Shown here piece after piece: positions 5,478 through 39,300 of a DNA stretch of 64,000 nucleotides; position 1 is the first letter of the stretch; each line of letters begins with the position of its first letter. The notes beneath the pieces are model-generated. The model saw only the letters and a list, made by a program, of their open reading frames with translations, was not told the DNA's origin and made no database searches. Source of the DNA: Thermoplasmata archaeon (GTDB lineage: Archaea; Thermoplasmatota; DTKX01; VGTL01); NCBI GenBank assembly GCA_038851035.1, contig JAWCLH010000001.1, positions 134,098-198,097 on the forward strand, given 5' to 3'. The translations under genes and the position numbers were made by a program.

Positions 5478-5534
5478 CCCGGCCAACCGGCGAGAGCCCA
5501 GCGGCGAGGCCTAGCCCCTGCTCGCAGGACGAAA

Positions 5535-5543
5535 AAATTAATC
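5535..5543 (+). promoter_or_regulatory. Putative TATA box for the deacetylase-family gene
   Basis: AAATTAATC in GC-rich surroundings, centred about 32 bases before ATG 5572, which would give a very short or absent leader. Assigned by eye. Confidence 0.45.
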
Positions 5544-5571
5544 ACGCCGAGCGCAATTCCCGGCGGGCCCG

Positions 5572-6588
5572 ATGACGCTCGTACACCACCCAAGATACCA
5601 CGCCCACAGGCAGACCGTCGGCCATCCGGAGTGCCCGGAGAGGCTCGATGCGATCGTCGCGCGCCTCAAAAGAGAGGGTCTATGGAATGACGTCCTCAAA
5701 CCGGAGCCCGTGGACCCCGCGCTGCTCAGAAAGGTCCACACGCCGGAGTACATCGAGAGCATCCGGGACTTTGGGGAGGGCTATATGGACCCCGACACCT
5801 ATGTCCGGCCCGAGACCTACGAAATCGCCCTGCTGGCGGCAGGGGGTGCAGTCCTCGCCGCCCGGACCGCTCTCGAGAGGGGCACCCCGAGCTTTGCGCT
5901 CGTCAGGCCCCCGGGACATCACGCCGGGAGCTACCACGGTGGGGGCTTTTGCTACTTCAACAACGCCGCGATAGCGACCGAGGCCGCGCTCGAGAAGGTC
6001 CGGAGGGTCGCCATCGTCGACATCGACCTACACCATGGGAACGGCTCGAGCGACATTTTCTACAAAAGGGACGACGTGCTCTACATCTCGACCCACCAGG
6101 GCGGAATCTACCCCGGCACCGGCATCCCGGAGGAGCTGGGCGAGGGAAGGGGCATGGGCTACAACCTGAACATCCCGCTACCAGGTGGCAGCGGAGACGC
6201 CACCTACAACTTGGCCCTGAGGCGAATAATAAAACCAGTGCTCCAGAGCTACCGCCCGGAGCTGATACTGGTGTCGCTCGGCGGCGACGCCCACTACATG
6301 GACCCGCTCGGGGGAATGGCGCTGACCTCGCCTGGGTACGTGGCCATTTCCGAGGAGCTCCTCGCGCTCGCCAGCTCCCTTTGCGGCGGCGCAATCGCCT
6401 TCACGCTTGAGGGCGGCTACCACACCGGCGCGCTGGCGGAGCTCGTGGCTGGTATCGTTGCCTCCTTCGATGGAAAGAAAGTCCAGTACGAGTTCGACCG
6501 CTCCTCGGACGAGACTGGCACGGGGGCCTACGCCGTTGCTCGAGCTGCCGCGGCGATGAGGAGGCACTGGCCATCGATAGAAGGCTAG
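5572..6588 (+). CDS. Histone deacetylase family (AcuC/HDAC-like) hydrolase
   Basis: 338 residues, a complete HDAC-superfamily domain. Motifs in order: HPECPERLDAI near the N-terminus, VRPPGHHA (catalytic His pair), VAIVDIDLHHGNGSSDIFY (zinc ligands Asp and His), SLGGDAHYMDPLGGM (second zinc Asp in the family) and LEGGYH at the C-terminus. Such zinc enzymes remove acetyl groups from lysines, polyamines or small molecules; in archaea the substrate is usually unknown (acetoin-utilisation-like proteins, Alba or histone deacetylation, and polyamine deacetylation have all been proposed for the family). It is a single gene whose stop codon overlaps that of the convergent CBS-domain gene. Confidence 0.92.
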   Translation: MTLVHHPRYHAHRQTVGHPECPERLDAIVARLKREGLWNDVLKPEPVDPALLRKVHTPEYIESIRDFGEGYMDPDTYVRPETYEIALLAAGGAVLAARTALERGTPSFALVRPPGHHAGSYHGGGFCYFNNAAIATEAALEKVRRVAIVDIDLHHGNGSSDIFYKRDDVLYISTHQGGIYPGTGIPEELGEGRGMGYNLNIPLPGGSGDATYNLALRRIIKPVLQSYRPELILVSLGGDAHYMDPLGGMALTSPGYVAISEELLALASSLCGGAIAFTLEGGYHTGALAELVAGIVASFDGKKVQYEFDRSSDETGTGAYAVARAAAAMRRHWPSIEG

Positions 6589-17381: not shown

Positions 17382-17424
17382 AACATCCATCTCGTTGGGG
17401 TCCATCCCTTTGGGGGCGGGAGAG

Positions 17425-18456
17425 ATGGCAGGTGAAGAGGGGCGCAGACCGATGTTGAGGCAGGGGCTCTACGAGCAGTTTCTGGGAATTCTGGAGGCCG
17501 AGGACCGAGAGGGGTGCGTGAGGTGGGTCCAGGAGAGGCTCAACTCCGGCGAGTTGGACATCGTGGCGCTCTATGAAGATATTCTGGCCCCATCGCTCAA
17601 TAAGATGGTCTGCAGGGACGAGGAAGCAAGGATATGTGTGTGGAGGGAGCACGTGCGCAGCTCGATAGTCAGGACCGTCATCGAGAGCTGCTATCTTTAT
17701 GTCCTCGAGGAGAGGGACAGGAGGATGGCCGCGCGCGGCGGGGCGGCGAGCGAGAGAGGACCGGAAGGCGCGGAATGGAGCGAGGCGGTGGAGAAAGTGA
17801 GGAAAATGGAGGGAGCGGGGGTGGATGAGGCTGGGAGGGTGGTGAGGGCGAAGGGAGTGGAAGCGAATGGGGCTGAAAGGGTGCTAAGAGGGGAGGGAGT
17901 GGAGGCGGATAATGTTGAAAGGGTGATGAGCGCGGAGGGACCGGGAGGGAATGGAGCTGGCGAAGGGAATGGGAGGGCTGGGGCGCGCAGCGCAGAGGCC
18001 CTCCGGGTGGGAGCGGTGCAAAAAGTGCCGGTCCGGGGGGCGGTGGGGAAGGGGGTGGAAGGGGGCATGAAGCGAGGGAGGGCGGCGAGGCGGGCGGCGG
18101 TCCTATGCCCCACGGAAGAGTACCACGAGCTCGGCGCGAGGATGGTCGCGGACTTCCTGACCATATGCGGCTACGACGTCACGTTCGTCGGAGCCAACAC
18201 TCCCCTCGAGGACTTCATCGCCGGCGTCCAGCTTGTCAGGCCGGAGGTGGTTGCGGTCAGCGTCACGAACCCCTACAGCCTCGTCGCAACGAGAAGAACC
18301 ATATCGGCGCTGAGGGCGGCGCTGAGGGAGGGCGCGAGGGTGGTCGTGGGGGGGAACGCCTTCCGAAGCAACCCCGGGCTCTTCAGGGAGACCGGCGCAG
18401 ACGCGCTCCTCCAGACATTCGCAGACATTGAAAAATTCGCAGGGGGCGGGGTCTGA
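17425..18456 (+). CDS. Cobalamin-binding-domain protein with long low-complexity linker
   Basis: 343 residues from ATG 17425. Residues 10-105 form a helical cap like the B12_binding_2 domain of methionine synthase or CarH-type proteins, including an EH pair (75-76) in VWREHVRSSIV. Residues about 110-215 are a Gly/Ala/Glu/Arg-rich linker with loosely repeated units (VEANGAERVLRGEGVEAD). Residues 222-343 are a Rossmann-like B12-binding domain: EYHELG replaces the usual DxHxxG but keeps the axial-ligand His (His234) and Gly237, and VVVGGNAF supplies the GG motif. No DNA-binding or catalytic domain is visible. The stop overlaps the start of an ABC permease (TGATG), so a sensor or corrinoid role tied to transport is plausible but inferred. 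Confidence 0.75.
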   Translation: MAGEEGRRPMLRQGLYEQFLGILEAEDREGCVRWVQERLNSGELDIVALYEDILAPSLNKMVCRDEEARICVWREHVRSSIVRTVIESCYLYVLEERDRRMAARGGAASERGPEGAEWSEAVEKVRKMEGAGVDEAGRVVRAKGVEANGAERVLRGEGVEADNVERVMSAEGPGGNGAGEGNGRAGARSAEALRVGAVQKVPVRGAVGKGVEGGMKRGRAARRAAVLCPTEEYHELGARMVADFLTICGYDVTFVGANTPLEDFIAGVQLVRPEVVAVSVTNPYSLVATRRTISALRAALREGARVVVGGNAFRSNPGLFRETGADALLQTFADIEKFAGGGV

Positions 18457-19619
18457 TGCTGCCGGCACGAATCGCGGCCCGCTTCCTGACCGCGACGAAG
18501 GGCCAGACCGCGCTCATCGTCTTCGGAATAGCGATGGGCGTGGCGGTTCAGGTTTTCGTCGGCGTCCTCATCACCAGCCTCCAGGCCACTCTCTTGGACA
18601 GGACGGTCGGGAGCTCGCCGCACATCACGATCCTCTCCGGAACCGACGAGCCCGTGATGGACGACTGGGAAAGGGTCGTGGCCGAGGCGGAGGCCACGCC
18701 GGGCGTGACGCGTGTCTCCCCCGCCGCCGACGGCTCGGTCTTCCTGATTCAGGGCAACCGGACCCTGCCGGTCGTCCTCCGCGGCCTCGAGCTCCAGAGG
18801 GCGGAGTGCATCTACAAACTCGGCTCCCGCATCTACGAGGGCCGCCTCCCCTCATCCGACTACGAGGTCATCATCGGCAGGGAGCTCAGCGAAGAGCTCA
18901 ACCTCCGGACCGGCGGTGCGCTCACCATCCAGACTTCAGCGGGCGCGAGGGCGACCCTGAACGTCACGGGCCTCTTCGACCTCAGGGTTGCGTCACTTAA
19001 CAGAGCATGGCTCCCGACGACCCTCCGGACTGCCCAGAGCATCCTCGGCTACGGCGCCGGGGTCACGTCTGTCGAGCTGCAGGTCGCGAGGGTGTTCGAG
19101 GCCGATAGAGTAGCGGGCGAGCTCAGGGACCGACTGGAGAGGAGCGGCTCCGGCGGCCTAGAAGTCCTCGACTGGAAGGGCCAGAACGCGCAGCTGCTCA
19201 GCGGCCTGCAGGCTCAGAGCCTCTCGAGCTACATGATTCAGTTCTTCGTGATCGTGTCCGTCGTGGTCGCCATTGCAAGCGTTCTCGCCATCAAGGTGGT
19301 CCAAAAGTCGAGGGAGATTGGAATTCTGAAGGCCATGGGGATAAGGGACGAGAGCGCGGGCCTCGTCTTCCTCTACCAAGGCGCGATGCTCGGAGGCGCG
19401 GGTGCGCTGCTCGGCATCTGTATCGGCGCCGGACTCCTGCTCGGATTCTACGCTGGCGCCTCTGGGGCGGGGGGCGGCGCCTCTGTCGACATCGTCATAG
19501 ACCCACTCTTCCTCCTCGGCTCGTGGCTCCTGGCGCTCCTCTCGTCCTGTTTAGCCTCTCTTATACCAGCCCGCAGGACCTCGCGGCTCAGCCCCATCGA
19601 GGTCATCAGGGGTGGCTGA
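18456..19619 (+). CDS. ABC transporter permease, FtsX/MacB family
   Basis: 387 residues. One N-terminal transmembrane helix (TALIVFGIAMGVAVQVFVGV), a large extracytoplasmic MacB-like region (about residues 45-245), and three C-terminal helices separated by short loops, with SLIPARRTSRLSPIEVIRGG at the end: the standard FtsX/MacB/LolC topology. Such permeases use ATP on the inside to drive conformational change outside, in export of peptides or lipoproteins or in control of envelope enzymes. It starts within the stop codon of the cobalamin-binding gene and is followed at once by the ATPase gene, so the three form a tight operon. Confidence 0.9.
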   Translation: MLPARIAARFLTATKGQTALIVFGIAMGVAVQVFVGVLITSLQATLLDRTVGSSPHITILSGTDEPVMDDWERVVAEAEATPGVTRVSPAADGSVFLIQGNRTLPVVLRGLELQRAECIYKLGSRIYEGRLPSSDYEVIIGRELSEELNLRTGGALTIQTSAGARATLNVTGLFDLRVASLNRAWLPTTLRTAQSILGYGAGVTSVELQVARVFEADRVAGELRDRLERSGSGGLEVLDWKGQNAQLLSGLQAQSLSSYMIQFFVIVSVVVAIASVLAIKVVQKSREIGILKAMGIRDESAGLVFLYQGAMLGGAGALLGICIGAGLLLGFYAGASGAGGGASVDIVIDPLFLLGSWLLALLSSCLASLIPARRTSRLSPIEVIRGG

Positions 19620-19620
19620 T

Positions 19621-20322
19621 ATGAACGGAGGCGAAACCGACGCGATTCGGCTGGAGGGCGTGAACAAGTCCTACGGCTCCGGGGAGTTGAGGACACAGGT
19701 GCTCTTCGACATCAACCTCTCATTTGCGAGGGGGACATTCAATTCCATAATCGGAGCGTCGGGGAGCGGAAAGACCACCCTGCTCAACATCATCGGCACT
19801 CTCGACAGGCCCGACAGCGGCGAGGTGGCTATTGATGGAAAAAGCACGTGGGGCATGGGGCGGCGCGAGCTCGCGGCTCTCAGGAACAGCACCATCGGCT
19901 TCATATTCCAGTACCACTACCTGCTGCCGGAGTTCACGGTCATTGAGAACGTGCTCATGCCCCGTCTCATCATGGGGGGCCCGGCGGAAGCGAGGGCCAG
20001 GGAGAGGGCGGAGGCCCTTCTTGAGCTCGTCGGGCTGGGCGCTGTGAAGGGCAAGCTCGCCTCAAAAATCTCGGGCGGCCAGCAGCAGAGGACCGCGATA
20101 GCGAGGGCGCTGATGAATGAGCCGAAAATAATCCTCGCGGACGAGCCGACCGGCAACCTCGACTCTGAGAACTCTGCGGCGGTCTATAGGCTCTTCAGGC
20201 GCATCAACCGTGAGCTGGGGACCACCTTCGTTATCGTTACCCACGACCGTAGAATCGCAGAGCAGACCGACAGGATAGTGGAGATTCGGGACGGCCGCAT
20301 AGGACTGGACATCAGGAAATGA
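19621..20322 (+). CDS. ABC transporter ATP-binding protein, MacB/LolD type
   Basis: 233 residues from ATG 19621, one base after the permease stop; GTG 19612 (three codons longer, overlapping the permease) is possible. Complete ABC ATPase: Walker A GASGSGKT, signature SGGQQQR, Walker B IILADEPTGNLDS and switch His in VTHD. The sequence VNKSYGSGELRTQVLFDINL at the N-terminus and the TGNLDS form are typical of the MacB/LolD/FtsE class that pairs with FtsX-type permeases. Its partner is the adjacent permease. Confidence 0.93.
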   Translation: MNGGETDAIRLEGVNKSYGSGELRTQVLFDINLSFARGTFNSIIGASGSGKTTLLNIIGTLDRPDSGEVAIDGKSTWGMGRRELAALRNSTIGFIFQYHYLLPEFTVIENVLMPRLIMGGPAEARARERAEALLELVGLGAVKGKLASKISGGQQQRTAIARALMNEPKIILADEPTGNLDSENSAAVYRLFRRINRELGTTFVIVTHDRRIAEQTDRIVEIRDGRIGLDIRK

Positions 20323-22112: not shown

Positions 22113-22160
22113 AACCGGTTTATAAAGATTAAATTTATCTCTTGAAATAATATACCTATA
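22113..22160. promoter_or_regulatory. Divergent promoter region of nob1 and gyrB
   Basis: AT-rich island between divergent genes. For gyrB, TAATATAC at 22148-22155 precedes ATG 22195 by about 43 bases, with GGAAGAGG as a likely ribosome binding site. For nob1, minus-strand GATAAATTTAATC (22128-22140) and TTTATAAA (22119-22126) are candidate TATA boxes before GTG 22103. Confidence 0.55.
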
Positions 22161-22179: not shown

Positions 22180-24093
<1,914 letters not shown>

Positions 24094-24114
24094 TGTGGGA
24101 GGCGCGGTGCTGAC

Positions 24115-27100
24115 ATGGGCTTCATGAGAGCCGCGGTTGCTCTGGGGCTGGCGGCGCTCTTTCTGGTCCCCGCCGGAGGCCCCCTCTCCCCTGCGGGTCT
24201 CTCGCTCGCGAGGGTGGTGTCCTCATTCTCCAACGGCTCGGAGAGCGGGCTGCTCGAGCTCCGGCCTCCGGACGAGAACCGCGAGCTCTCGATATCCCTC
24301 CCAGAGCACTGCTACGTGGTCGATGCCTCCCTCTCCATCTCCACGGCCCTGTCCGACGGCGGGGGGTTCCCGGAGGCCCCGGTGCTCGACCTCGAGGGGG
24401 ACGGAAAGCCGGAGTGGGCCTTCTGCGCGACTGGCGCGGGCGCCTTCGGCCTCCAGACGGTGACGGCTACCGGCGGGAGGACCGTGGAGCTGAGGTTCCC
24501 CTCGGCCGGGAGCCAGAGCTTCAGCCTCCTGCTCCCGAGGGGCGCGCTCGTGACCGGTGCCTCGCTCAATGTATCGGGCAGATTGGATGGAATTCAATTC
24601 ACGAACGCCAGCATCTACGGTCGCGGGTCCTATGATATGCTCGGCCTCTCCGTCGCCGGCGGGGTCGACATCAACCGTGACGGCGTGGACGACGTGGTCA
24701 TTGGGGCCCCGGGCGCGGACACGAAGGGCATGACGGACAACGGCGCCGTCACGGTGCTCTACGGCCCGCTCGACGGCCCCCTCCCCGCGCCCGACAGTGT
24801 GGAGGGCACTGAGAGCGGGGAGCTGCTGGGGTTCTCAGTCGCCGCCGTCCGCGACTTCGATGGCGACGGCTTCGGCGAGGTTCTCGCCGGGGCCCCCAAC
24901 GCCACGCCGCGCGGGGCCGGGACGCCCACCCCGAACGCTGGCATCGCCCTCCTCCTCCCCTACGAGGCGTCGGCCGGGAGGCTCAGGTCCCTGCCCGCCC
25001 GGACGATTCCGGGCCTAACCGTGAACGGCCAGATGGGCTTCTCCGTCGCCGAGATTCCGGACTTCAACGGCGACGGCCGGAGGGACATAGCGGCTGGGGA
25101 GGTTCTGGCGAACAGGACGGTCCTCCAGCCCTACATCGGGAGGGTGGCCGCGCTGGGCAGCGGCGAGCTGGCCCCCGCGCCCGTAAACCTTTGGGGCGAG
25201 AGCCCCTACTCCCTCTTCGGCTTTTGCATCCTGAGGGGCCCGGACAACGACCTCAACCGCGACGGAAAGCCGGACCTCGCAATCGGCTCCCCCCTGGCCT
25301 CCCCCGGTGGGAAGGGCATGGTGGGGGCGGTCTACATCTTCACGAGCCCCGAGGAGCACTATTGGCTGGTGATTCAGGGCGAGCAGCCCTCCAGCAACTT
25401 CAGCGCCTCGCTCGCCGCGGGCGACTTCAACGGCGATGGAGTTGCCGACCTGGCGGTCGGGGCCCCGGCGATGAAGAATGAGGGGACCGAGACCGGCGCC
25501 GTGGTGGTCTACTTCGGGGGAGAGAGAGGAATCGATTCCTCGGTCAGTCCGGTGGTTCTCTGGGGCCCCCTCGAGAGGGCCCGCTACGGGGCCTCCATCG
25601 CCTGCCCGGGCGACCTCGACCTCGACGGTTGCGACGAGCTCCTTGTGGGCGCGCCGGGAGCGGCCAGGCCCGCGGGGGCGCAGAGGACGGGGGCGGTCGA
25701 GGTGCTCTTCCTAGGCAGGAACGAGAGCGTCTGGATATGGGGCGAGAGGCCGAACGAGAACTTCGGCTTCTCCCTCTCCGCCGCGGGCGATGTGAACGGG
25801 GACGGCCTAAGGGACTTCATCGTCGGCGCGCCGACCTCCACTGGGGGCAACCTCGAGGCCTGCGGCCGCGCGATCGTCTTCACGACGCGTCTGCTCGCGC
25901 CCCTGAACCCCTCCGTCTGCGTCGGCGGCCTCGGCGCCGACGACTGGTCCTTCAGGGGGTACTACACGCGAGACCTGAGAATTCCCGACTTCTCCTCGAA
26001 GCTCAACGGCCTCCTTCAGAACCCCCTGCGCGAGGTCGAGGACGAGTTCGGCAATGTGCTCGTCGAGATTCCCGTGGTGGTGCGCAGCGAGAGCCCCGGG
26101 ACGCTGGTTGTGCACGACATATCCATCGCCTATAAATGGACCGCTCTCGTGGACAGGAACCCCAGCGCGGGGAACCTGACGAACTCGCTCAACGCCCTCC
26201 TGAGCCACAGCGCGAGCGGCAACGCCACCAAAACCATCCCCCTCGTCCTCACCTCCGCGACGCCGGGGAGCGTCCGGGTCCACAGCCCGAGGATTGTGAT
26301 AGACGAGCCCCCGTCGTGCAGGGAAGATGTGGCGGTCGAGCTCCCGGAGGACACGAGGAACGAGCACCTCCTCGACCTCCGGAGCGTGTTCAGCGACGAC
26401 TTCGACAACGAGGAGCTGGTCTTTTCTCTGGAGGGATGGACAAACGCCTCGATAGTGTCGCTAGGAATTTCCGGGGGGAGGTGGCTCTCCGCCGACGCGC
26501 TCACCGGAGAGGCCAACGACAACTGGACCGGAGAGGTCGAGGCGGCCGTGTCCGCGATGGACCGCCGGAACCTGAGCCGCACGGCCCGCGTTCTGGTCTC
26601 AGTGGTCCCGGTCAACGACCCGCCCGTGTTCACGGGAGATGAGCCGCCGCACGAGGCCACCGTAGGCCTTCCGTACTTCTACAATCCCGCGGTCGTCGAC
26701 TCCGACGGCCCCTCTCTCTCTTTCTGGCTCGAGGGGGCTCCCGAGGGCATGAGCGTGAGCGAGGCCACGGGCGAGCTGCGCTGGACGCCGGGGCTGGCCC
26801 AGCTCAACCGGAGCTACACCGTGACGCTCTGGGTCTCCGACGGAGAGCTGGAGAACTCTCGATCCTGGCCGCTCAGGGTCGCGGGCCGGCTCATGGGCGT
26901 GAGGTTCAACAGCACCCCGCCCCGGACGGTATACGATGGAGAGACCTATTTTTACAGGCCGTCGGTCCTCACGGACGTGCCCGGCGCGAGCATCGCCCTC
27001 TCGCTATCCCGTTCGCCGGAGGGGATGAGGCTCGAGAACGGGACCGTCATCTGGAACCCCCCGCACATGAGCGGAATGATATTCGAGGCCGCGCTGAACG

Positions 27101-29013
27101 CCTCCGACGGCTTCTTCACCGCCGAGCAGAGCTGGAGAGTCATAGTTCTCAGCCGTGGCTGGCCCAACTCGAGCTTCGGTTGCATCTTCCACTTCCCTGA
27201 CAATGGCTCGAGAGTGTCGGGCATGGTCAGGGTCGGCGGGTCGTCTTGGGCGCTGGACGAGGTGATAGAAAGCGTCGAGCTCAGCGTGGACGGGGGTCGC
27301 TGGAGGAGGGCCCGGGGGGTGCAGGACTGGGAGTACTGGCTGGACACCTCGGAGCTGCCCAACGGGCCGCACACCATCAGCGCTCGCGCCTGCGCCGGCC
27401 CCAACTACTCCCCGCCGGTCTCCATCAACGTTATCGTGGACAACCCGCCCGAGACCCTCATAGAGAGGGTCGGCGACATCGGGCTCATCATCATCGGACT
27501 TCTCATCCTGCTCGCGGTGGCGGGCGCCTCCGCGGGATTGTACATGAAGAGAAAGAGGGCAGCTGGAGCCGCGCCGGCCTCCCCAGCCCCCCCAGCTCCG
27601 CCGGTGCCCCCGGCCCCAGGCCCGCACACTGGCGCGTCCCCCGCCGCCGGAGCGGCCGCCGCCGCGCCCGGGCCTCCCGCCGCTCCCGCGCCTCCGCTCT
27701 TGCCGGGCGAGGAGGAAGGGTTTGCGGTCGAGGACGTTTTCCTGGTCTACATCGACGGCCGCCTGATTCACCACTCGACGCGCAGGCTCGCGACAGGCGT
27801 GGACACCGAGATTCTATCGAGCATGCTGACCGCTCTCACCTCCTTCGTCCGCGACGCGCTCTCTAAAACGGGCGAGGCCACCGTCGGGAGCCTCGAGTAC
27901 GGGGGAAACAAGATAATCTTCGAGATGGGCAGGTGGGTCTATCTCGCGGTCGTGATAACGACTAGGCAGGAGCCCCCCGGCCTGAGGGAGGAGATGAGGC
28001 AGGCGGTCAGAAACGTCGAGTCAGAGTTCGGGGCCGTGCTTCCGGACTGGGACGGAAATATTGCCACGCTCGCGGGCGCGAGGAGGCTCCTGGCCCCCCT
28101 CACGTCCTTCACAGTCGCAAGACCCACCGCACGAGCGCCGCCGCCGGAGGTGGAAGTCAGCGTGCTGGGCGAGCTCGAGTTCTATCAGGGCTATGTGCGG
28201 CTGAAGGTGGCGGTGAAGAACAGCTCCCCGGCCTTCATCATGGACGCGGCGCTGAAGGTGATGTACAACGAGAGCGCCTTCAGGCTAGAGCGCATCGAGC
28301 CTGAATACCCGCTCAGCGGGAGGGAGATTCTGCTCGGGAACATCGGAATCAAAGAGAAGAAGACAGTGGCCCTCTACCTCGACCCGCAGATATGCACGGA
28401 GTCATACATCGACGCCACCCTGACCTTCAGGGACGCGCAGGGCAACCTCCACCACGCCGACATGAGGCGCAAGCTCGCCTCCGTTGTCTGTCCGATCATG
28501 CACACCGACGAGAACATCAACGTCGCCATGCTGCGCAGGATGCTCGAGGCGGAGCTGGACCAGAAGGACAGCAAGGTCTTCAGCCTACCCCAAGGGCTCT
28601 CGCCGGAAAAGGCCTTCGAGCTTTGCAAGCGCGCGGTGCAAAGCCACGACATAAGGCTGGTCAGGGAGTTCGAGGAGAGGAGCCCCTCCTACGTGGGCGA
28701 GGCCTGGTACTTCGGAAGGGTCAAGGGCAGGCCGGAGAGGCTCGTCGTCAGGGCCTCGGTCAGGGAGGACACATCGAGCGCGGAGTTCTATGTCGCGAGC
28801 GACAGCAAGCTCGTGCTCACGGGGCTACTCGCGGAGCTTAAGAACGACCTCAACAGGGAGTACAGGAAGGAGATGGCCTCCGAGAGGCAGATGGAGCCCG
28901 TGCTTGACCCGGCGAGGAGGGAGCGCGTGAGGAGAGAGAGGACCCTGCTGGATAGGCACGCGGAGGCCGAGGCGTCCGGCACGAACGGCCGGGGCCGGAG
29001 CGCGGGAGGATGA
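24115..29013 (+). CDS. Integrin-like seven-FG-GAP membrane protein with Ig-like domains and cytoplasmic module
   Basis: 1632 residues, starting 21 bases after gyrB. Signal peptide at 1-28. Residues about 165-590 hold seven FG-GAP repeats, each with a calcium-loop motif (DINRDGVDD, DFDGDGFGE, DFNGDGRRD, DLNRDGKPD, DFNGDGVAD, DLDLDGCDE, DVNGDGLRD): the number that forms the beta-propeller of integrin alpha chains. Then come cadherin/He_PIG-like Ig domains (about 725-1100; NDPPVFTGDEPPHEATVG, GELRWTPG). One transmembrane helix (about 1120-1143) precedes an Ala/Pro linker and a cytoplasmic part: an alpha/beta domain (VFLVYIDGRLIHHS..., perhaps roadblock/longin-like), a beta-sandwich and a final alpha/beta domain (about 1460-1600). 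Exported adhesion or sensing protein by architecture; function unknown. Confidence 0.85.
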   Translation: MGFMRAAVALGLAALFLVPAGGPLSPAGLSLARVVSSFSNGSESGLLELRPPDENRELSISLPEHCYVVDASLSISTALSDGGGFPEAPVLDLEGDGKPEWAFCATGAGAFGLQTVTATGGRTVELRFPSAGSQSFSLLLPRGALVTGASLNVSGRLDGIQFTNASIYGRGSYDMLGLSVAGGVDINRDGVDDVVIGAPGADTKGMTDNGAVTVLYGPLDGPLPAPDSVEGTESGELLGFSVAAVRDFDGDGFGEVLAGAPNATPRGAGTPTPNAGIALLLPYEASAGRLRSLPARTIPGLTVNGQMGFSVAEIPDFNGDGRRDIAAGEVLANRTVLQPYIGRVAALGSGELAPAPVNLWGESPYSLFGFCILRGPDNDLNRDGKPDLAIGSPLASPGGKGMVGAVYIFTSPEEHYWLVIQGEQPSSNFSASLAAGDFNGDGVADLAVGAPAMKNEGTETGAVVVYFGGERGIDSSVSPVVLWGPLERARYGASIACPGDLDLDGCDELLVGAPGAARPAGAQRTGAVEVLFLGRNESVWIWGERPNENFGFSLSAAGDVNGDGLRDFIVGAPTSTGGNLEACGRAIVFTTRLLAPLNPSVCVGGLGADDWSFRGYYTRDLRIPDFSSKLNGLLQNPLREVEDEFGNVLVEIPVVVRSESPGTLVVHDISIAYKWTALVDRNPSAGNLTNSLNALLSHSASGNATKTIPLVLTSATPGSVRVHSPRIVIDEPPSCREDVAVELPEDTRNEHLLDLRSVFSDDFDNEELVFSLEGWTNASIVSLGISGGRWLSADALTGEANDNWTGEVEAAVSAMDRRNLSRTARVLVSVVPVNDPPVFTGDEPPHEATVGLPYFYNPAVVDSDGPSLSFWLEGAPEGMSVSEATGELRWTPGLAQLNRSYTVTLWVSDGELENSRSWPLRVAGRLMGVRFNSTPPRTVYDGETYFYRPSVLTDVPGASIALSLSRSPEGMRLENGTVIWNPPHMSGMIFEAALNASDGFFTAEQSWRVIVLSRGWPNSSFGCIFHFPDNGSRVSGMVRVGGSSWALDEVIESVELSVDGGRWRRARGVQDWEYWLDTSELPNGPHTISARACAGPNYSPPVSINVIVDNPPETLIERVGDIGLIIIGLLILLAVAGASAGLYMKRKRAAGAAPASPAPPAPPVPPAPGPHTGASPAAGAAAAAPGPPAAPAPPLLPGEEEGFAVEDVFLVYIDGRLIHHSTRRLATGVDTEILSSMLTALTSFVRDALSKTGEATVGSLEYGGNKIIFEMGRWVYLAVVITTRQEPPGLREEMRQAVRNVESEFGAVLPDWDGNIATLAGARRLLAPLTSFTVARPTARAPPPEVEVSVLGELEFYQGYVRLKVAVKNSSPAFIMDAALKVMYNESAFRLERIEPEYPLSGREILLGNIGIKEKKTVALYLDPQICTESYIDATLTFRDAQGNLHHADMRRKLASVVCPIMHTDENINVAMLRRMLEAELDQKDSKVFSLPQGLSPEKAFELCKRAVQSHDIRLVREFEERSPSYVGEAWYFGRVKGRPERLVVRASVREDTSSAEFYVASDSKLVLTGLLAELKNDLNREYRKEMASERQMEPVLDPARRERVRRERTLLDRHAEAEASGTNGRGRSAGG

Positions 29014-29071: not shown

Positions 29072-31675
29072 ATGGAGAAGGAGGAACGAGATGGGGGCGC
29101 GGCCGGGGCCGCACCCGCGGGGCAAGTGATTCTTAGACCAATCGAGAAGGAAATGGAGAGCTCGTACATAGACTACGCGATGAGCGTTATTGTCGGCAGG
29201 GCCCTGCCCGACGCGCGCGACGGCCTGAAGCCTGTGCACAGGAGAATTCTGCACGCGATGAACGAGCTCGGCCTGACCCACGACAAACCATACAAGAAGT
29301 CGGCGCGCGTGGTCGGAGAGGTGCTGGGCAAGTACCATCCACACGGCGACACCGCGGTTTACGACACCATCGTGCGGATGGCTCAGGACTTCTCCCTGCG
29401 CTACCCGCTGATAGACGGGCAGGGAAACTTCGGCTCCATAGACGGCGACGCTCCGGCCGCGATGAGGTACACGGAGTGCAGGATGGCCGCGATCGCATCG
29501 GAGATGCTCGCGGACATAGAGAAGGACACGGTGGACTTCGTGGACAACTTCGACGCCACTCTGAAGGAGCCCTCGGTCCTCCCGGCTCTCCTGCCCAACC
29601 TGCTCGTCAACGGCTCGCAGGGAATCGCGGTAGGGATGACGACAAGCATCCCGCCCCACAACCTTGGAGAGGTCGTGGACGCCATTTGCCTCCTCCTCTC
29701 TAAGCCGGAGGCGGACATCGCGGAGCTAATGCAGCTCATCAAGGGCCCGGACTTCCCGACCGGCGGAATCATATACGGCATCGGCGGAATTCTCGACGCC
29801 TACAGGACAGGCAGGGGCTCGATAAAGGTCCGGGCGCGGACTAAGATAGAAGACAGGGGGCAGGGGAGGCAGCGCATCGTGGTCACCGAGCTTCCCTATA
29901 TGGTTAACAAAGCGGCCCTCGTCGAGTCGATCGCGGAGCTTGTCAGGGAGAAGAAGGTCGAGGGCATCGCGGACATCAGGGACGAGTCCGACCGCGAAGG
30001 GATGCGCATAGTGCTCGAGCTAAAGAAGGAGGCGCTGGCCGAGGTCGTGCTCAACCAGCTGTTCAAGCACACCTCTCTCGAGACAACCTTCGGCGCGGTC
30101 AATCTTGCGCTCGTGGACGGGAGGCCGGAGGTCCTCACGTTGAAGCGCCTGCTCCAGTGCTATATCGACCACAGAAGGAGCGTGGTCCGCAGGAGGACGG
30201 AGTTCGAGCTCAGGAGGGCCGAGGAGAGGGCCCATATCCTTCAAGGCCTTCTCGTGGCGCTAGACCACCTCGACGAGGTCATCAGCACCATCCGCTCCTC
30301 AAGGACGCCGGAGGAGGCTCGGGAGGCGCTAGTCGCGCGCTTCGGCTTCACGGAGCCCCAGGTGAGGGAGATTCTGGACACAAAGCTCCAGAGGCTCACG
30401 GGGATGGAGAGAGGGAAGGTCAGGGAGGAGTTCGAGGGCCTCGAGAGGGCCATACAGGACTATAGGGCGACGCTGGCCGACCCCAGCAGAATCGACGGAA
30501 TCATCCAGACCGAGCTCAGGGGGCTGAGGGAGAGGTACGCCGACCCGCGCAGGACCGAGATAGTTTACGAGAGCGCGGACCTCGACATCGAGGACCTGAT
30601 TCCCAATACCGAGATAATAGTCACCATCACGCAGAACGACTACATCAAGAGGATGCCGCTCGACGTCTACCGCCAGCAGAGGCGGGGCGGGAAGGGGCTC
30701 GTCGGCATAGAGACGAAGGAGGAGGACACGGTCGTGGACGTGTTCACCACCCGCGCCCACAACTACCTCCTCTTCTTCACCAGCAAAGGGAAGGTCCACT
30801 GGCTCAAGGCCTACAAGGTGCCGGAGGGCGCGAGGCACGCGCGGGGAAGGCCCCTGGTCAACCTACTCCCCGGCCTGGAGGAGGGCGAGACGATTCAGTT
30901 CACCGTCCCCGTGAGCGATTTCGACGAGAGGCTCTGGGTGGTGTTCGCGACCCGCCGCGGTATCATAAAGAAGACCGCGCTCTCTGCCTACGGTAACCCG
31001 CGGGCCTCGGGCATCATCGCGATTCTCCTCGAGGAGGGCGACAGCGTGGTCTCCGCGGCCCTCTCCGATGGAAGAAGGGAGCTCGTGCTGGCCACGCGCA
31101 GTGGGAAGGCGGTCAGGTTCAGCGAGGAGGACGTCAGGCCGACGGGGAGGGCCACGTACGGCGTCCGCGGAATCACGCTGGAGCCGGGCGATATGGTCGT
31201 CAGCATGGCGTCAGTGTCGCCGGACGACGTCCTTCTCACCGTCACCGAGAACGGCTACGGAAAGAGGACGCCGGTTCAGGACTACAGGCTCGTCCGGAGG
31301 GGCGCGAAGGGGGTCATAACCATAGACACCAACGAAAGGAACGGGCCCGTGGTCGCGGTCATCCCGGTGAGCGACACGGACGACCTGATTCTGACCAGCG
31401 AGAGGGGGATGATGATTCGAATTCCGGTCAGCGGAATTCCGGTGCAGGGAAGGGCCACGATGGGCGTCAGAATCATGAGGCTGGAGCCGGGGGACAAGGT
31501 GAGGGGCGTGGACAGAATCAGAGCCGAGAACGAGGGGCAGAGGGCGGGCGAAGGCGGGGCTGGCACGGAGAATGGTGCGGGGCCGGAGACAGAGGGGGCC
31601 GGAGCAACCCCGGAAAGTGCTGGTAGGGAGGAGGGCGGCGCAGGTGGGGATGGGGAGCGGGGGCCGGGCGGGTGA
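29072..31675 (+). CDS. gyrA: DNA gyrase subunit A
   Basis: 867 residues. Breakage-reunion domain with [20 protein letters not shown] and the DNA-cleaving Tyr133 in AMRYTECRM, a coiled coil (EEVISTIR...), and a C-terminal beta-pinwheel with the GyrA box QRRGGKG (536-542), which separates gyrase from topoisomerase IV and is needed to wrap DNA for negative supercoiling. The quinolone-pocket position equivalent to E. coli Ser83 is Thr. The last ~50 residues are a Gly/Glu/Ala-rich tail. It starts 59 bases after the FG-GAP gene, so gyrB, the membrane protein and gyrA may form one transcription unit. Confidence 0.97.
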
Positions 31676-31949: not shown

Positions 31950-34900
31950 TCACTTGTTCCTCTCCACGAGGGTGTCCCCAGCCTCGCCCTCGGCCTCTAG
32001 CTCCTTGTCCTTAAGCCCCGCCTCGGCGGGCGGAGCGGGGGCCTCGGGCTTCCCAGCCTGCTCCGGCGCCGCCACGGGCGCGAGCCTAGTGGCTTGGTCT
32101 ATGTCCTCAGGCTTCGCCTCGCCCACGCCGCTCTTATCCTTCAGGCCAGCCTTGGCGGGCTGAGGCTCTGGAGCCTCGGGCGGCGGGGCCTCGGGGGGCT
32201 TCGGGGGCTCCTCGGGCTGCTTTTCGGGCTGCTTCTCGGGCGGTTTCGTGGGCGGTTTCGCGGGCTCCTTCGGCCTCTTCTTCATCACCCTCTCGACCCT
32301 CGGCATTGCCGCCCTGCGCGCCTCCAGCGCCTCCCTCTCCCTCCGCTCCGCCTCCGCGGCCTCGATTTCCGCAAGCACCCTCTTCCTTCTCTGGCTCCAG
32401 GAGGCGGTGACAAAATACGTAACTACCGGCAGGGCCAGTCCGATTCCTATCATTAGCCCCGCCAGGTTGAGCATCCAGCTCGTGTCCTCCCTCACCACCA
32501 CCGGCGGCTTCTCCTTCAGGACCACCCGCGACTCGGTGACGGTGTTGCCCGCGGCGTCCGTGCTCTTGATGGTAATTCTGTTCTCGCCGTCCTCGAGCAC
32601 GACAGGAACCGCGAATAGGCCGTCATGACCCACAACGACCACCTGCTCGGTGTTGATTATCAACCTGGCGAAGGGCTCGGTCTGGCCCGTGACGGTTATG
32701 ACCCTTTGCTTCACGGTAATTCCCTCCTCGGGGAAGACTAGAAGAATCGTGGGGGTGGTGGTGTCGAGGGTGACGGTCCTCGTCAGGACGACGGTGTTGC
32801 CGGCCTGGTCCGTGGCCGAGACCACGATTCTCTGCGTCCCGTCCTCTGGGAAGGCGAGGGTCTGGGTGAAGACGAAGTCCACGACCTGCACGAGCTCTCC
32901 ATTGATTCTGACCTCGGCGCCGAAGTCCACGGAGCCCACGACGGTGACGACTCTGGAGGCCAGAGCGAGGCCGTCCGCGGGCGAGGTGAGCACGAGGTCG
33001 GGGGGATGCGTGTCGAGATAGACGACCCTAGTCACGACCCTAGAGTTCCCCGCGGCGTCGGTGGCGACCGTGGTGATGGTGTTCGGGCCCTCGAGGAGCG
33101 TGAGGTATGTCTCGAAGAGCGTGCCGACGACGTTCGTGCTCTGGCCGTTGATGGTGACTGAGGCGCCCTGCTCGGTTGCGCCTGTGACGAGGATGCGCGA
33201 CTGGTTGGTCCAGAGTGCGTCCCTGGGTGCGAAGACGGTCAGGTCTGGCGGGGAGGTGTCGAGGTAGACCGTGAGGGTGCGCTCGACGCTGTTGCCGGCA
33301 GCGTCCCTCGCGGTGACCACAATCACGTTCACGCCCTCTGAGAGGGAGATAAGGGAGACGAAATTGGTGCCCGAGACGTGGGCGGGGAGGCCATTGACGC
33401 TGACGACGGCCGAGGGCTCAGTCCGGCCAATAAACGATATCACCTCCTGATTCAGGAAGGCGCCGTCAGCGGGGCTGGTGACCTCGAGCAGGGGTGGCTC
33501 CGTGTCGAGAGTCACGCGCACTTGTATCGTCTTAGAGTTCCCACTGGGGTCGGAGGCCGTGATGACTATCGTATTGGGGCCATCCTCGAGCGATATCTGG
33601 ATGCTGAAGTGCCTCTTCACGACCGGCGCGGGGAGGCCGTTCACCGTCACGAAGGCGCCCTCGTCGGTCACGCCGTGGACGGTTATCGTCCTCTCGCTGG
33701 TCGCGCTACCGTCCTTCGGGGTGAAGAGGAAGAGGGAGGGTGCGCTGGTGTCTATCGATATCTGCACCAGTATCCGGGCGGTGTTCCCGGCAACGTCCTG
33801 CGCACAGACCTTCGCGACATGGGTGCCGTCAGATAGGAGCCTGGTGTAGCTCCATCTCGTATCCTCAGAGACCGTGATCTCGCTCCAGCCCATATTGTCG
33901 ATGTTGATTGTCACAGCGCCCTCCCTGAGACCGGACTCCTCGTCCGAGGCTGTGCCAGAGAATGTCACGAGTAGTGTGTTTAGCTGGGCCCAGTTCGCCG
34001 GGAATCGAATTTTCAGCTCGGGCGGGGCATTGTCGACGAGAATCATCCGAACCGACGCTGGGCCGTCTAGCATCAGCATCTCGGTCGCGCTGACCCGGCC
34101 CTTGGAGACGCTCAGCCTATGGGGCGTGTACTTGATTGTCATGAAGTTATGGACCGTGTACTCCTTCACCAAAGCGTCCCGGGTGAGCCGCCCCCTCTCG
34201 TCCGTGACCCCGCTGAATACATACTCACCCATAGCGGTGCTTATTGTGACGTGGACGCCCGAGGCGGGGTAATCGTTCTGCCACGTCACCAGCAAGGTCA
34301 GCGGCCATGAGACATTGAGATAGGAGCCCCCGTCCAGCACCCTGAACGTGTTCTTGTTGTGGGTTGAGTTGTACACCTCGACGGTTGCGCTCCGATTGAG
34401 CTGAAACTCGATGTCGTGCAACAGCACCGAGTCCTGTATCGTCGCCCATGAGGCCGCGGCCCGCACCCCCATCGAGCCGGCCTCGCCCTTCAGCTCGCAC
34501 CGGAGCACGTAGGCCCTCGAGCCTTCGTCCAGATTGATGCTGACGGTCTGTACGCCGGTGATTCTGGTGTCAATGACTTCCACGGAACTGAAGTCTAGGG
34601 CCGAGACGCCGTAGTGCGGGTTCTGGACAGTGCAGTTGACCATTTTTATGTAGCTGCCGAGCTGGGCGACGGCGGCGTGGAAGGGGGGCTTTCCGCCGCC
34701 CGGGGCCGGCAACTTGAAGACGCAGTTTTCGACGTACGCGTCCGAGAGGGCCCCCGCCTGCAAGAGAACACTAGTGCTTGGTGTGCTGGGCGAGCCGCTC
34801 ATCTTGTACTCGAGCGTGTTGTCCCGAAGTTGAACGCCGGAGGCCTTGAGCGACAGGTTGAGCAGCACCAACGGCATCCGGCCGGTCCCCCTGCAGTCGA

Positions 34901-36392
34901 TGGTGAAAGTGTTGCCCTGAATCAGGCTGTCTGAGGACTGCATCAGCTCTATCGTGTACATCGCGTCGGCGAAGAACCAGAAAGTGCCTCCCGCGTAGTA
35001 CTGGTAGTCGTAGTACTGAACCGTGAGAGTGTTGTTGATGATTGCGGGCGAGGACCTCGTGCCCTTGATCGAATAGGCGGTCCTTGTGCCCATGAAGCAA
35101 TAGGAGTAGGTGCCGCCGCCGAGATAGTCGCTGAGCATCCTGTTGCCCGAGATGCAGGGGCTCGAGCGCACGAGGTCAATCAGAACGGCGGCGTTGTTGA
35201 TTGTGTTCCCGGTTATGTTCCCGTTCGAGCTCACCAGTCTGATGTTTGCGCCGTAGTACCAGGACATGCTCCGATTGTCTCCTGAAACGTAGTTCTGGTA
35301 GGGCTCGAAACCGTTTCTATCAAAGAGGTTTTCAGTGATATCCAGAGTGGAGTTCTCTGCGTGAAGACCAGTTCCATACACCCAGTTCGCTATATAGTAG
35401 TTATATTCGTACAAGTAGACCCAGAGCTCGTAGATGTCGTAGTACCCCTCCACTGTAGGGGAGACGGTTGTGGGTGTGCTGGCGGGCAGTGCATAGCCGT
35501 TCTTGGTTATTGTGTTATTGTGGATTGTGCAGCGGGAACCGCCTTCGAGCCGAATTCCTGTCCCGTAAACATTTGACATCCGGTTGCCGTAGTCGTACTG
35601 GTACCTGTAGTAATAATAAACATCTCTCGAAGAGTCATATGCCGGGCCGTAGTAGTACTTGTCGTCAATATTGAAGTAGCCCGGGTCGAGTGGGGGGCTG
35701 TAGGAGGAGTAGGACGCGTCGTACCAGGTGTGCAGGTAGCGGTTGTCCGTGATAATGTTGCCGCGGAAGGTAGTGGTTGTGTTGCGGGCGTAGATGCCGT
35801 AGCAGTATAGCGGGCTCTGGCCGTCCTGCCCATTGTACCGGATGACGTTGTCGTTGACGACGGGCGAGCAGTCGAAGATGCTGATTCCTCCAGTCTTGCC
35901 GTGCTCGATGGTGCTGTTCGTGACGCTCACTGAGTCGCTGTATATCTGGATGCCCCCAGCCCAGGACTCATTGTCGCCCCAGGTCTCCTGGACGGTGCAG
36001 GCATCGATGGTCGCCGAGCCCTTGATCACGAATTTGTAGTGGGCGCTGGAGTTGGTCGAAGAGACCAGGCACCCGTTCTTCATCGTCAGCGCTCCACCTG
36101 AGTCCACTTTCAGGGCGTATACGCCGTCCTCCATGATGTCGAAGAGGAGGGTGACGCCGCTCAGACTCAGGCTACCCCCGCTCTTGATGGTCAGGCTCCC
36201 GTTCACAATCGTTATGCTCACGCCGCTGTAGCTCCTGCTGTCCGTGACGGTCCAGTCGCCGTAGACCGTCCCGCCGCTCCCCGGCGGGTCGTTCGTGGCG
36301 AGCGCGCCTGGCAGCAGAAGAAACACGGCGAGTGCCGCAAAAGACGCGGTAAAACCACAGAGAAGCAGCCTACCGGTCCTCATCTCAGGCAC
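31950..36392 (-). CDS. Giant surface protein: right-handed beta-helix, about six Ig-like domains, membrane anchor, cytoplasmic tail
   Basis: 1480 residues. Signal peptide (LLLCGFTASFAALAVFLLLPGALA). Residues about 40-700 are a parallel beta-helix with short Asn/Ser/Thr-rich coils (GNIITDN, GIYARNTTTTFRGN, SVTNSTIEHGKTGGISI); 700-780 is a beta-sandwich; about 780-1290 contains six Ig-like domains, each opening with DT(x)PP- or DNAPP-like sequence and ending in a DAAGN motif. One transmembrane helix (about 1300-1325) is followed by a 150-residue cytoplasmic tail with a charged helix and Pro/Glu/Lys-rich repeats (AGLKDK twice). Beta-helix proteins often bind or cut polysaccharides, but no catalytic residues are evident. 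Its ATG lies 8 bases inside the end of the upstream giant gene, so both are translated from one operon. Confidence 0.82.
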   Translation of the reverse strand: MPEMRTGRLLLCGFTASFAALAVFLLLPGALATNDPPGSGGTVYGDWTVTDSRSYSGVSITIVNGSLTIKSGGSLSLSGVTLLFDIMEDGVYALKVDSGGALTMKNGCLVSSTNSSAHYKFVIKGSATIDACTVQETWGDNESWAGGIQIYSDSVSVTNSTIEHGKTGGISIFDCSPVVNDNVIRYNGQDGQSPLYCYGIYARNTTTTFRGNIITDNRYLHTWYDASYSSYSPPLDPGYFNIDDKYYYGPAYDSSRDVYYYYRYQYDYGNRMSNVYGTGIRLEGGSRCTIHNNTITKNGYALPASTPTTVSPTVEGYYDIYELWVYLYEYNYYIANWVYGTGLHAENSTLDITENLFDRNGFEPYQNYVSGDNRSMSWYYGANIRLVSSNGNITGNTINNAAVLIDLVRSSPCISGNRMLSDYLGGGTYSYCFMGTRTAYSIKGTRSSPAIINNTLTVQYYDYQYYAGGTFWFFADAMYTIELMQSSDSLIQGNTFTIDCRGTGRMPLVLLNLSLKASGVQLRDNTLEYKMSGSPSTPSTSVLLQAGALSDAYVENCVFKLPAPGGGKPPFHAAVAQLGSYIKMVNCTVQNPHYGVSALDFSSVEVIDTRITGVQTVSINLDEGSRAYVLRCELKGEAGSMGVRAAASWATIQDSVLLHDIEFQLNRSATVEVYNSTHNKNTFRVLDGGSYLNVSWPLTLLVTWQNDYPASGVHVTISTAMGEYVFSGVTDERGRLTRDALVKEYTVHNFMTIKYTPHRLSVSKGRVSATEMLMLDGPASVRMILVDNAPPELKIRFPANWAQLNTLLVTFSGTASDEESGLREGAVTINIDNMGWSEITVSEDTRWSYTRLLSDGTHVAKVCAQDVAGNTARILVQISIDTSAPSLFLFTPKDGSATSERTITVHGVTDEGAFVTVNGLPAPVVKRHFSIQISLEDGPNTIVITASDPSGNSKTIQVRVTLDTEPPLLEVTSPADGAFLNQEVISFIGRTEPSAVVSVNGLPAHVSGTNFVSLISLSEGVNVIVVTARDAAGNSVERTLTVYLDTSPPDLTVFAPRDALWTNQSRILVTGATEQGASVTINGQSTNVVGTLFETYLTLLEGPNTITTVATDAAGNSRVVTRVVYLDTHPPDLVLTSPADGLALASRVVTVVGSVDFGAEVRINGELVQVVDFVFTQTLAFPEDGTQRIVVSATDQAGNTVVLTRTVTLDTTTPTILLVFPEEGITVKQRVITVTGQTEPFARLIINTEQVVVVGHDGLFAVPVVLEDGENRITIKSTDAAGNTVTESRVVLKEKPPVVVREDTSWMLNLAGLMIGIGLALPVVTYFVTASWSQRRKRVLAEIEAAEAERREREALEARRAAMPRVERVMKKRPKEPAKPPTKPPEKQPEKQPEEPPKPPEAPPPEAPEPQPAKAGLKDKSGVGEAKPEDIDQATRLAPVAAPEQAGKPEAPAPPAEAGLKDKELEAEGEAGDTLVERNK

Positions 36393-39300
36393 CCCCCGTC
36401 TGCCGTCTGTGAATTCTCAGACCGATTGTGAGCAAAAGCGTGGTCAGAGGTATCATTATGCCAAGCGCCGCAAGCAGGCCGCTGGCCGTCCAGACCCAGC
36501 TCGTCTCCTCAGAGATTCCCGCAGGCTTCTCGACGACCTTCAGTTTCACGGTCCGGGTCACTTGGTTCCCCGCCCCGTCCATCGCGGTCACCGTCACGGT
36601 ATTCCCGCCCTTCCTCATCGTCTGGACGGTCGAGAATTTCCCTTCAGCATCCACAAGCACCGGGACGCCGTTGACGGTCACCCTCGCGCCTGGCTCTGTT
36701 ATGCCGCTGACCGTGACCGAGAGCTCGCTCGTCCTGAAGCCCTCCACGGGCTCGATGAGCTCGAGCGGGGGCGCCAGAGTGTCGACCAACACCCGTAGCT
36801 CCAAAGCGACGGTGTTGCCCGCGGCGTCGCTGCCCTCGACACGAATCACATTTGGACCGTCGGGGAGCTCCAGCTCGGATGTAAAGGTGCCGCCCGAGGT
36901 GTCCACCGCGGCACCGTTAAGGGCAAGTCTCATTCCGGCCTCGCAGGTGCCCCTGACCGTCACGCGGTGGCTCGGAATCAGCTGGCCTTCGTAGGGCTCC
37001 AGAATTATGACGAGCGGTCTTGTGGTGTCGAGCGTTATTATTCGAACCAGCTTTATTGTGTTGCCCGCCCTGTCGACGCCATCGAACAATAGCTCGTTCA
37101 CACCTTCCTGCAGCGTGCAGGTCAGGGAGAAGGAGCCGTCGGGGCCGATGGTGACGAGGCCGCCGTTCATCCTGAGCGACACATCCGTGTCCGTCGTCCC
37201 TTGAACGAGCAGGGTTATCTGGTTGGTAATGCTGTTGTTCTCGGGCGACGTCACGGTCAGGCGAATCTCGTTATCCAGCACCACCGTTCTCTTGATGATA
37301 GCGCGGTTCCCGACCCCGTCGCTCGAGACGACGGTGATCAGGTTGGGGCCTGGGGAAAGCCCGAGCTCGAACGAGAAGCTCCCGTCGGCTTCCAGCTCCC
37401 TCCGGACGTCGTTGACCATGAGGGAGGCGCCCGGCTCGGTCCTCCCGCTGACCAGAACCGAGGCCACCCGGGTCAGGAGGCCGTCCGGGGGGCTGGTGAG
37501 TCTCAGAACGGGAGGAGTTATGTCCAGATTGAGGACCCAGGAGGTGGAGTTGGTGTTGCCCGAGCGGTCCTTCGCGAAGAGGAAGTAGACGTTCCTCCCC
37601 TCCACCAGCCTGAGCGGGAAGGAGAAGCTCCCGTCCGCCCCGACGCTTGCGGGGAGGTAGTTGATGGTCAGGGTCGAGCCCGGCTCCACCCTACCGACCA
37701 GATTCACCGCGATTGAATTACCCCAGCTGTCGCAGGCGGGAGACTCAACGACGATGAAGGGCGGAGTCAGGTCTATGGTCACCCGGACCGATGCCGAGGC
37801 CTCGTTGCCGGCGATGTCCGTGACTTTGGCGGTGATGCTCCAGACGCCCTCGGGGACGTTCTCCATAATGTACAGCCAGCTCCCGGCGGGCAGGAGCTCG
37901 ACCCAGCTGACGCCGTCGTAGCTGAGGCTCAGTTTCTCCATTCCGGAGCCGATGTCGGAGGCGATGCCGACGAGGGTGACTGTGGTGAAGTTCTGGAAGG
38001 TGTCGTCGGCGGGCTCGAGTATCACCACCACGGGCAGGCTGTCGTCAACTATCACAACGGTGGCCTCCATCGTCCTGTCCACGACCACCTTCGTCTCGCC
38101 AGTGAAGCCCGCCTTGCTCGCGGTGAGGGTGTAGGGGGTGTAGTAGCGGGTCGCGAGCCTGGTCTGGGTGTACTCCACTACGGAGAACGGCGGCACCAGC
38201 CCGCTCTCGGTGCAGACGGTCCTGAGGACTTCTGTGCCGAAATTGTCCTTCGCGATCACATCGGCGGAGGGGACGGGCCGTCCGTTCTGCCACGTGACCT
38301 TTATGCCGAGCCACCAGTTGATGATCACAGTGCTCTTGTCGTCGAAGTAGGTCACGCGGGCCTTGTTAAATGTGGAGTTGAGGGACCACACCGTCGAGAC
38401 CCCCGAGAGCTGGAGGTCTGCGGTTGTCGCCTGAATCGAGCTGTCTATGAGGCTCACCCAGGACTCGTCGCTGACGTTGGCTCCGTACGCGCAGGAGGTT
38501 ATCGTGCATCCCTTCAGGGTTCCATTCCCAGAGCTTTCCGCGAGGAACCCGTAGGTGCAGTCCGTTATTTTGGAGGTCACCATGGGCCGGGAGAAATAGG
38601 TCGAGTAGATTGCCGCGTACAGGTGGCTGAAGCTGCAGTCCGTGATCTCGGGCCAGGAGACCATGTCGCAGTGGATGCCATAAGCCCTCCCGTTCCCGTT
38701 GCCAGCGACCGTGATGTTCTGAATTCTGCCTGCCGACCTCTCTAGTTTTACTCCAGTAAGGGCCATATCCGAGCCCGCGGGGGCGTTCAGAAATACCTTC
38801 ATGTCGCTGATTGTGATCCCCTTGACCCCGACCAAAAGCACTCCCGAGCATGGGAGGGTAGAGGGCTTCTCGAGGGTTAGGTTGAACTCCGAGTTGGAGA
38901 GGCTCAGGCTCTGAACCACGCCGGACTTCGTCAGGCCAAGGAGGCTGAGCTTACACTCCTCACGGGTAGCCGTCATCGAGAACTTGGAGCCGTGGACGAC
39001 AAGCTCGCCGAGGCTTGGTTCGGTGCCGCTGGTCGATTCGAAAGTGATGAAGGACTGGGTCGTGCCAGGGGCGTTGATTTTAAAGTCGACGCGTGAGTTG
39101 ATGAACGCGATCCGGCCCATCGGGCCGTCCTGATATATAAGGAACTGGGTCAGGGGCTCGTTGTCGTAGGTGATGTTGAGGGTGGTGTTGTTGAACTCAA
39201 GGACCTCGGTGCCGGGATAGGTCCTTATGAAGGAGAACGTGAGCGGGAAGGTGCCGGTGCCGCCGCCGTAATAGAAGTTGAAGACCGAGTCGTTGAGATA

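Follow-up and report, generated by a model that had tools for sequence, protein, structure and literature searches.

Inserted between gyrB and gyrA in a Thermoplasmata archaeon is a gene for an integrin-like protein, which we read, with moderate confidence, as a surface receptor or adhesin that spans the membrane once, belongs to a modular archaeal family and works with Ras-like GTPases, and as having reached the gyrase locus through one ancestral insertion. By sequence comparison the receptor belongs to a modular family in which a conserved tail is shared by paralogues with differing heads. Integrin-type heads, longin domains, adaptor appendages and Ras-like GTPases are already known in prokaryotes, each singly; what appears to be new is the predicted longin–ear–platform tail under integrin-type and other heads in Thermoplasmatota, and a search of open-licence papers (longin, adaptin, small GTPases, archaea) found no description of this receptor type. 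Taken alone, the position between the gyrase genes is of little interest.

Architecture and the integrin-type head

The open reading frame (24115–29013, + strand) is intact, with 1632 codons and zero internal stops. Its features and those of the surrounding gyrase genes, in coordinates of the window (the whole 64,000-nucleotide stretch of DNA analysed), are:

22119..22126, + strand: TATA-like TTTATAAA ahead of gyrB, where the promoter of the unit probably lies
22195..24093, + strand: gyrB, full Pfam domain set
24086..24094, + strand: AT run ATATATAAT, a possible internal TATA box some 25 bp ahead of the receptor ATG
24115..29013, + strand: gene for the integrin-like transmembrane receptor/adhesin (1632 aa), lying between gyrB and gyrA
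24115..24198, + strand: signal peptide (hydropathy)
24589..25914, + strand: seven-bladed FG-GAP propeller with a Ca-binding loop in each blade
26320..27444, + strand: Ig/cadherin-like stalk domains (Pfam He_PIG, Big_9, Big_7)
27469..27543, + strand: single transmembrane helix (hydropathy; residues about 1119–1143)
27544..27711, + strand: Pro/Ala-rich juxtamembrane linker (sequence), differing between orthologues
27724..28119, + strand: predicted longin-fold domain, cytoplasmic (predicted structure; Sec22b, VAMP7 and AP sigma subunit matches)
28135..28500, + strand: predicted Ig-like beta-sandwich, adaptin-ear-like (predicted structure and structure search)
28507..28881, + strand: predicted alpha/beta platform, like an adaptor appendage platform (predicted structure; AP-4 beta appendage match)
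29072..31675, + strand: gyrA, full Pfam domain set, with the AMRYTE catalytic-tyrosine motif and the QRRGGKG GyrA box in its sequence

The original prediction had described an exported protein with exactly seven FG-GAP/calcium-loop repeats, Ig-like domains, one membrane helix and a folded cytoplasmic part, and each of these elements was recovered. The signal peptide and the single helix are clear in hydropathy, with an N-terminal beta domain lying between the signal peptide and the propeller; seven DxxxDG-type loops were counted, at residues 185, 247, 316, 379, 437, 500 and 559 (Pfam FG-GAP E 1.9e-48); the Pfam Ig-like matches are to He_PIG (residues 837–911) and, weakly, to Big_7 (residues 1028–1090); and the cytoplasmic part, from residue 1200 to about 1590, was modelled over residues 1200–1590 with a mean pLDDT of 82.

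The predicted likeness to integrin alpha chains holds by sequence as well as by fold. A phmmer comparison of the receptor with PDB sequences found integrins at E 3e-14, the best stretches falling within residues 299–585. When an AlphaFold2 model of the head (residues 30–740, from four sequences; pLDDT 79, pTM 0.68) was compared with the PDB, integrin alpha chains ranked above everything else and all of the top 50 matches were integrins (Foldseek E 9e-19). Overall, these matches have a VIA Z of about 39 with about 385 residues aligned at 21–27% identity, and they include integrin alpha6 (VIA Z 39.4, 383 residues, rmsd 3.3) and alphaV (VIA Z 38–39, 26% identity). Like metazoan integrin alpha, the receptor combines a seven-bladed FG-GAP head with Ig-like leg domains and a single membrane helix, but it has Ca loops in all seven blades and lacks the KXGFFXR motif, which was sought after the membrane helix, where the sequence is YMKRKRAAGAAPA; and where metazoan integrin alpha ends in a short tail, the receptor carries a large folded cytoplasmic module. 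Bacteria, too, have proteins with seven FG-GAP repeats in a row that bear the integrin motif, and the integrin-type propeller sequences retrieved there are reported to be without a membrane helix (Chouhan et al. 2011, PMC3192720). The receptor has the same seven repeats and adds a membrane helix and the cytoplasmic module.

The cytoplasmic tail and its family

The same gene occurs in an independent MAG of another genus (G001), at 57% identity over the full length; a genome contig scan with the full-length protein gave VGTL01000035.1, of Euryarchaeota MAG M_DeepCast_200m_m1_298, as the relative with the same gene. Comparing the two orthologues gives identities of 52% for the ectodomain, 30% for the membrane helix and 76% for the tail, the last being near the value for gyrA (73%) and below that for gyrB (84%) in the same genome pair. 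For this tail we found no Pfam family and no PDB sequence relative, and a Pfam match to SbcD_C, below cut-off and 30 residues long, was rejected as chance.

The tail model (mean pLDDT 82, pTM 0.51) comprises three domains. Residues 5–136 of the model adopt a longin fold, with the beta-beta-alpha-beta-beta-beta-alpha-alpha order of elements, and match Sec22b (Z 13.9, 127 aligned, rmsd 2.8), VAMP7 (Z 13.0), Fuzzy (Z 12.6) and AP sigma (Z 12.3). Residues 142–263 form an Ig-like sandwich and residues 266–390 an alpha/beta platform resembling the AP-4 beta appendage (Z 11.8, 115 aligned, rmsd 2.9), such that an Ig-like ear is followed directly by an alpha/beta platform in the order and with the folds of an adaptor appendage. 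The top eight Foldseek matches of the tail model are a COPI chain and AP2 alpha appendages (E 9e-9 to 1e-7). Superposition of the whole appendage is poor (rmsd about 15–16) and, given also the pTM of 0.51, the angle and relation between ear and platform are unreliable in the model. With fair to good confidence, the tail is predicted to begin with a longin domain and to continue as the ear and platform of an adaptor appendage of the clathrin/COPI type.

Among AP, COPI and BBSome assemblies, the ear and platform are among the best structural matches to the tail, as are the longin domains of AP and COPI; the receptor differs from all three in that its propeller is extracellular and all parts stand on one membrane protein. 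At the sequence level, AP and COPI coats give no match to the tail, the Pfam adaptin and coatomer models returning zero matches at E <= 1 to 14 members of the tail module. Also comparable are the archaeal adaptin-appendage proteins of ESCRT systems, which have an ear and a TBP-like platform (PMC11188069 / PMC10936438, 2024); in Methanobacteriales a membrane linker joins the appendage to a GOLD domain, in Asgard archaea appendage domains occur with longin and Vps28-C, and reductive ESCRT evolution has been described for Thermoplasmata/Thermoplasmatota (PMC11188069). The receptor family differs from these in belonging to Thermoplasmatota, in its longin–ear–platform order, and in its integrin, Kelch and PKD heads; no Snf7-type ESCRT-III was found in the receptor's genome.

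This genome encodes three intact proteins with full-length tails plus a split copy; G001 encodes six such proteins and G002, a genome of the same class, at least six. The module also stands under Kelch-propeller, PKD/CARDB, He_PIG/cadherin-like and fn3 ectodomains. A tree of 14 tails recovers the two gyrase-locus genes as orthologues and puts them with Kelch-headed paralogues from the same family (98/96 support). The receptor paralogues that were looked at lie elsewhere in the genomes, and several adjoin other large exported proteins. The longin domain may be part of soluble proteins as well as surface ones: a 933-aa protein (L142, 4779–7577, − strand) whose start appears HEAT-repeat-like by eye has the same longin domain at its C-terminal end.

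Association with Ras-like GTPases

This genome encodes at least seven strong Ras-family GTPases (E 1e-28 to 1e-39). Across 292 Thermoplasmatota genomes, the longin/tail domain is found in 34, Ras-like GTPases in 36 and both in 30, a co-occurrence with a Fisher p of 1e-30 that is inflated by kinship; counted by family, 15 are shared of 17 and 17 (p 1e-7). The two are also neighbours in the genome, as 15 of 95 longin matches lie within 3 kb of a listed Ras gene where 1.3 would be expected (about 12 times chance), two of the 15 being second matches in one gene, which leaves 13 distinct gene pairs. One such pair (G250, locus L140) is a tandem on one strand, in which the first gene encodes a small longin protein with a membrane anchor and the second a Ras-like protein extended at its C-terminus. 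In another (G280, L141), a Ras gene and the gene for a large protein ending in a longin domain converge. The neighbouring pairs involve longin-bearing proteins encoded in other genomes, of which G003 and G004 belong to the same class, while the full-tail genes of this genome lie on contigs that carry none of the listed Ras genes. On one contig (L137, − strand) a Ras-like GTPase gene (5823–6380) directly precedes a gene for a V4R-like protein (4815–5819), which from its sequence may be TRAPP/Bet3-related. The same contig has two Ras genes about 1 kb apart, likewise paired in G001 (C40).

Longin and roadblock domains are part of GTPase platforms elsewhere (TRAPP, Mon1–Ccz1, CPLANE; MglB–MglA; Asgard, PMC10933270), which have in common with the receptor the longin fold and the association with GTPase genes, but in the receptor the longin domain is fused to a large transmembrane surface protein. 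In the Asgard strain MK-D1 a longin–GTPase gene neighbourhood is not general (PMC10933270), whereas in Thermoplasmatota longin matches near GTPase genes are frequent.

From this genomic association, which is confounded by kinship, we infer that the receptor tail may be coupled to Ras-like GTPases. The longin domain would bind or regulate Ras-like GTPases of the same cell and the ear and platform would recruit cytoplasmic partners, so that the receptor would couple outside contact by its head to a GTPase-controlled membrane or cortex process inside; alternatively, it may be a sorting adaptor fused to its own head. Weighing against this reading, many proteins have Ig-like or TBP-like folds, the tail lacks a Pfam adaptin match and its model has a pTM of 0.51. 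The same evidence would be accommodated if the protein were a plain structural adhesin whose module only anchors it to a cortical scaffold or dimerises, the longin–Ras association then concerning other proteins; the ectodomain is of typical adhesin build, no full-module gene in this genome stands beside a listed Ras gene, and longin and ear folds often act as protein–protein scaffolds. Longin domains can also serve without GTPases, as in SNAREs. We nevertheless think such an adhesin unlikely, as the module is the most conserved part of the protein and recurs under unrelated heads, and longin domains as a class are strongly tied to Ras-like GTPases by both co-occurrence and neighbourhood.

If the GTPase link is real, the receptor family would offer a directly testable archaeal system for wiring surface contact to small GTPases and adaptor modules, and such wiring would exist outside eukaryotes and outside the Asgard group. 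More tentatively, a non-Asgard lineage would possess a family of integrin-, Kelch- and cadherin-headed receptors whose longin and appendage tail works with several Ras-like GTPases in outside-in signalling or receptor sorting, built from components that eukaryotes later employed for small-GTPase signalling and vesicle coats.

A probable insertion at the gyrase locus

The gaps between gyrB and the receptor gene (21 bp) and between the receptor gene and gyrA (58 bp), taken from gene coordinates, bear out the tight spacing first noted. In 45 genomes of the phylum gyrB and gyrA share a contig, and in 43 of these, among them the sister family G003/G004 of the same class, they adjoin each other (match ends −22 to 82 bp apart); they are separated only here (4981 bp) and in G001 (4941 bp), which represent two genera of the same family. 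G002 is outside this count, as contig ends fall within its gyrB and at the beginning of its gyrA. An assembly artefact is ruled out by the gyrB–receptor–gyrA arrangement shared by two independent MAGs, and a phylum-wide conserved member of the gyrase operon by the presence of the insert in only 2 of 45 genomes. A 2022 survey of archaeal gyrases describes gyrBA operons as well as splits into distant loci, and a word search of it turned up no insertion (PMC9348778).

Of the two explanations originally offered, a gyrase operon broken by insertion is thus the better supported, given the adjacency in 43 of 45 genomes elsewhere, while conservation of the gyrB–FG-GAP–gyrA order across related Thermoplasmatota did not hold, the order being confined to two genomes of one family. 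It had further been supposed that relatives with adjacent gyrase genes and this gene elsewhere would mark it as an isolated insertion; relatives with adjacent gyrase genes exist, but the insertion is not isolated because two genera share the insert. The claim that nothing in the spacing suggests separate promoters survives in part: the gap before gyrA has no TATA-like element, but the receptor is preceded by the AT run ATATATAAT, which could be an archaeal TATA box and a private receptor promoter in this genome, and for which no counterpart was found in G001. TATA-like runs cluster upstream of gyrB, and together with the spacing this TATA-rich region makes co-transcription of the receptor with gyrase plausible.

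The wider locus is colinear with G001 through genes for a 250-aa membrane protein, a Nob1-like PIN protein, gyrB, the receptor, gyrA, and Rad50-like and Mre11-like proteins. Two giant surface genes (31950–36392 and 36385–43536) lie between gyrA and rad50 here and are missing in G001, suggesting that surface genes come and go at the gyrase locus while the receptor stayed. Such turnover favours a neutral insertion with read-through transcription and no special reason to stay, which we regard as a fairly probable account of the location and one compatible with the preferred reading of the protein, although the gene is intact and its tail strongly conserved since the split of the two genera. A functional link between cell surface and supercoiling, the other explanation originally raised, would place the genes in one operon because receptor and gyrase levels must match or because surface signals modulate gyrase; the spacing fits a single transcript, and the order was kept in two genera with gyrB 84% identical as other genes of the locus came and went. 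No evidence for this link was found, however, and with the arrangement in one family only, same-module paralogues lying elsewhere and a possible private promoter in this genome, we judge it very improbable. In our preferred reading a paralogue was inserted once in an ancestor of this family, and the receptor probably rides on the gyrase transcript and would have no role in supercoiling.

The gene at 36385–43536 (− strand) encodes a giant 2383-aa surface protein with long tyrosine-rich repeats (YYTYSYLYIYSFYY...), across which local GC falls to 0.46–0.51 with strong skew, and the gene beside it (31950–36392) encodes a 1480-aa beta-helix/Ig surface protein. On the other side of the locus, the window region 17395–20322 contains B12-binding-like, FtsX/MacB permease and ABC ATPase genes with no match in the colinear G001 locus. 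G002 offers a further case of a surface gene next to gyrase, as a gene for a 1425-aa exported protein with zero Pfam matches (L080, 2584–6861, + strand) follows gyrA there on the same strand after about 65 bp.
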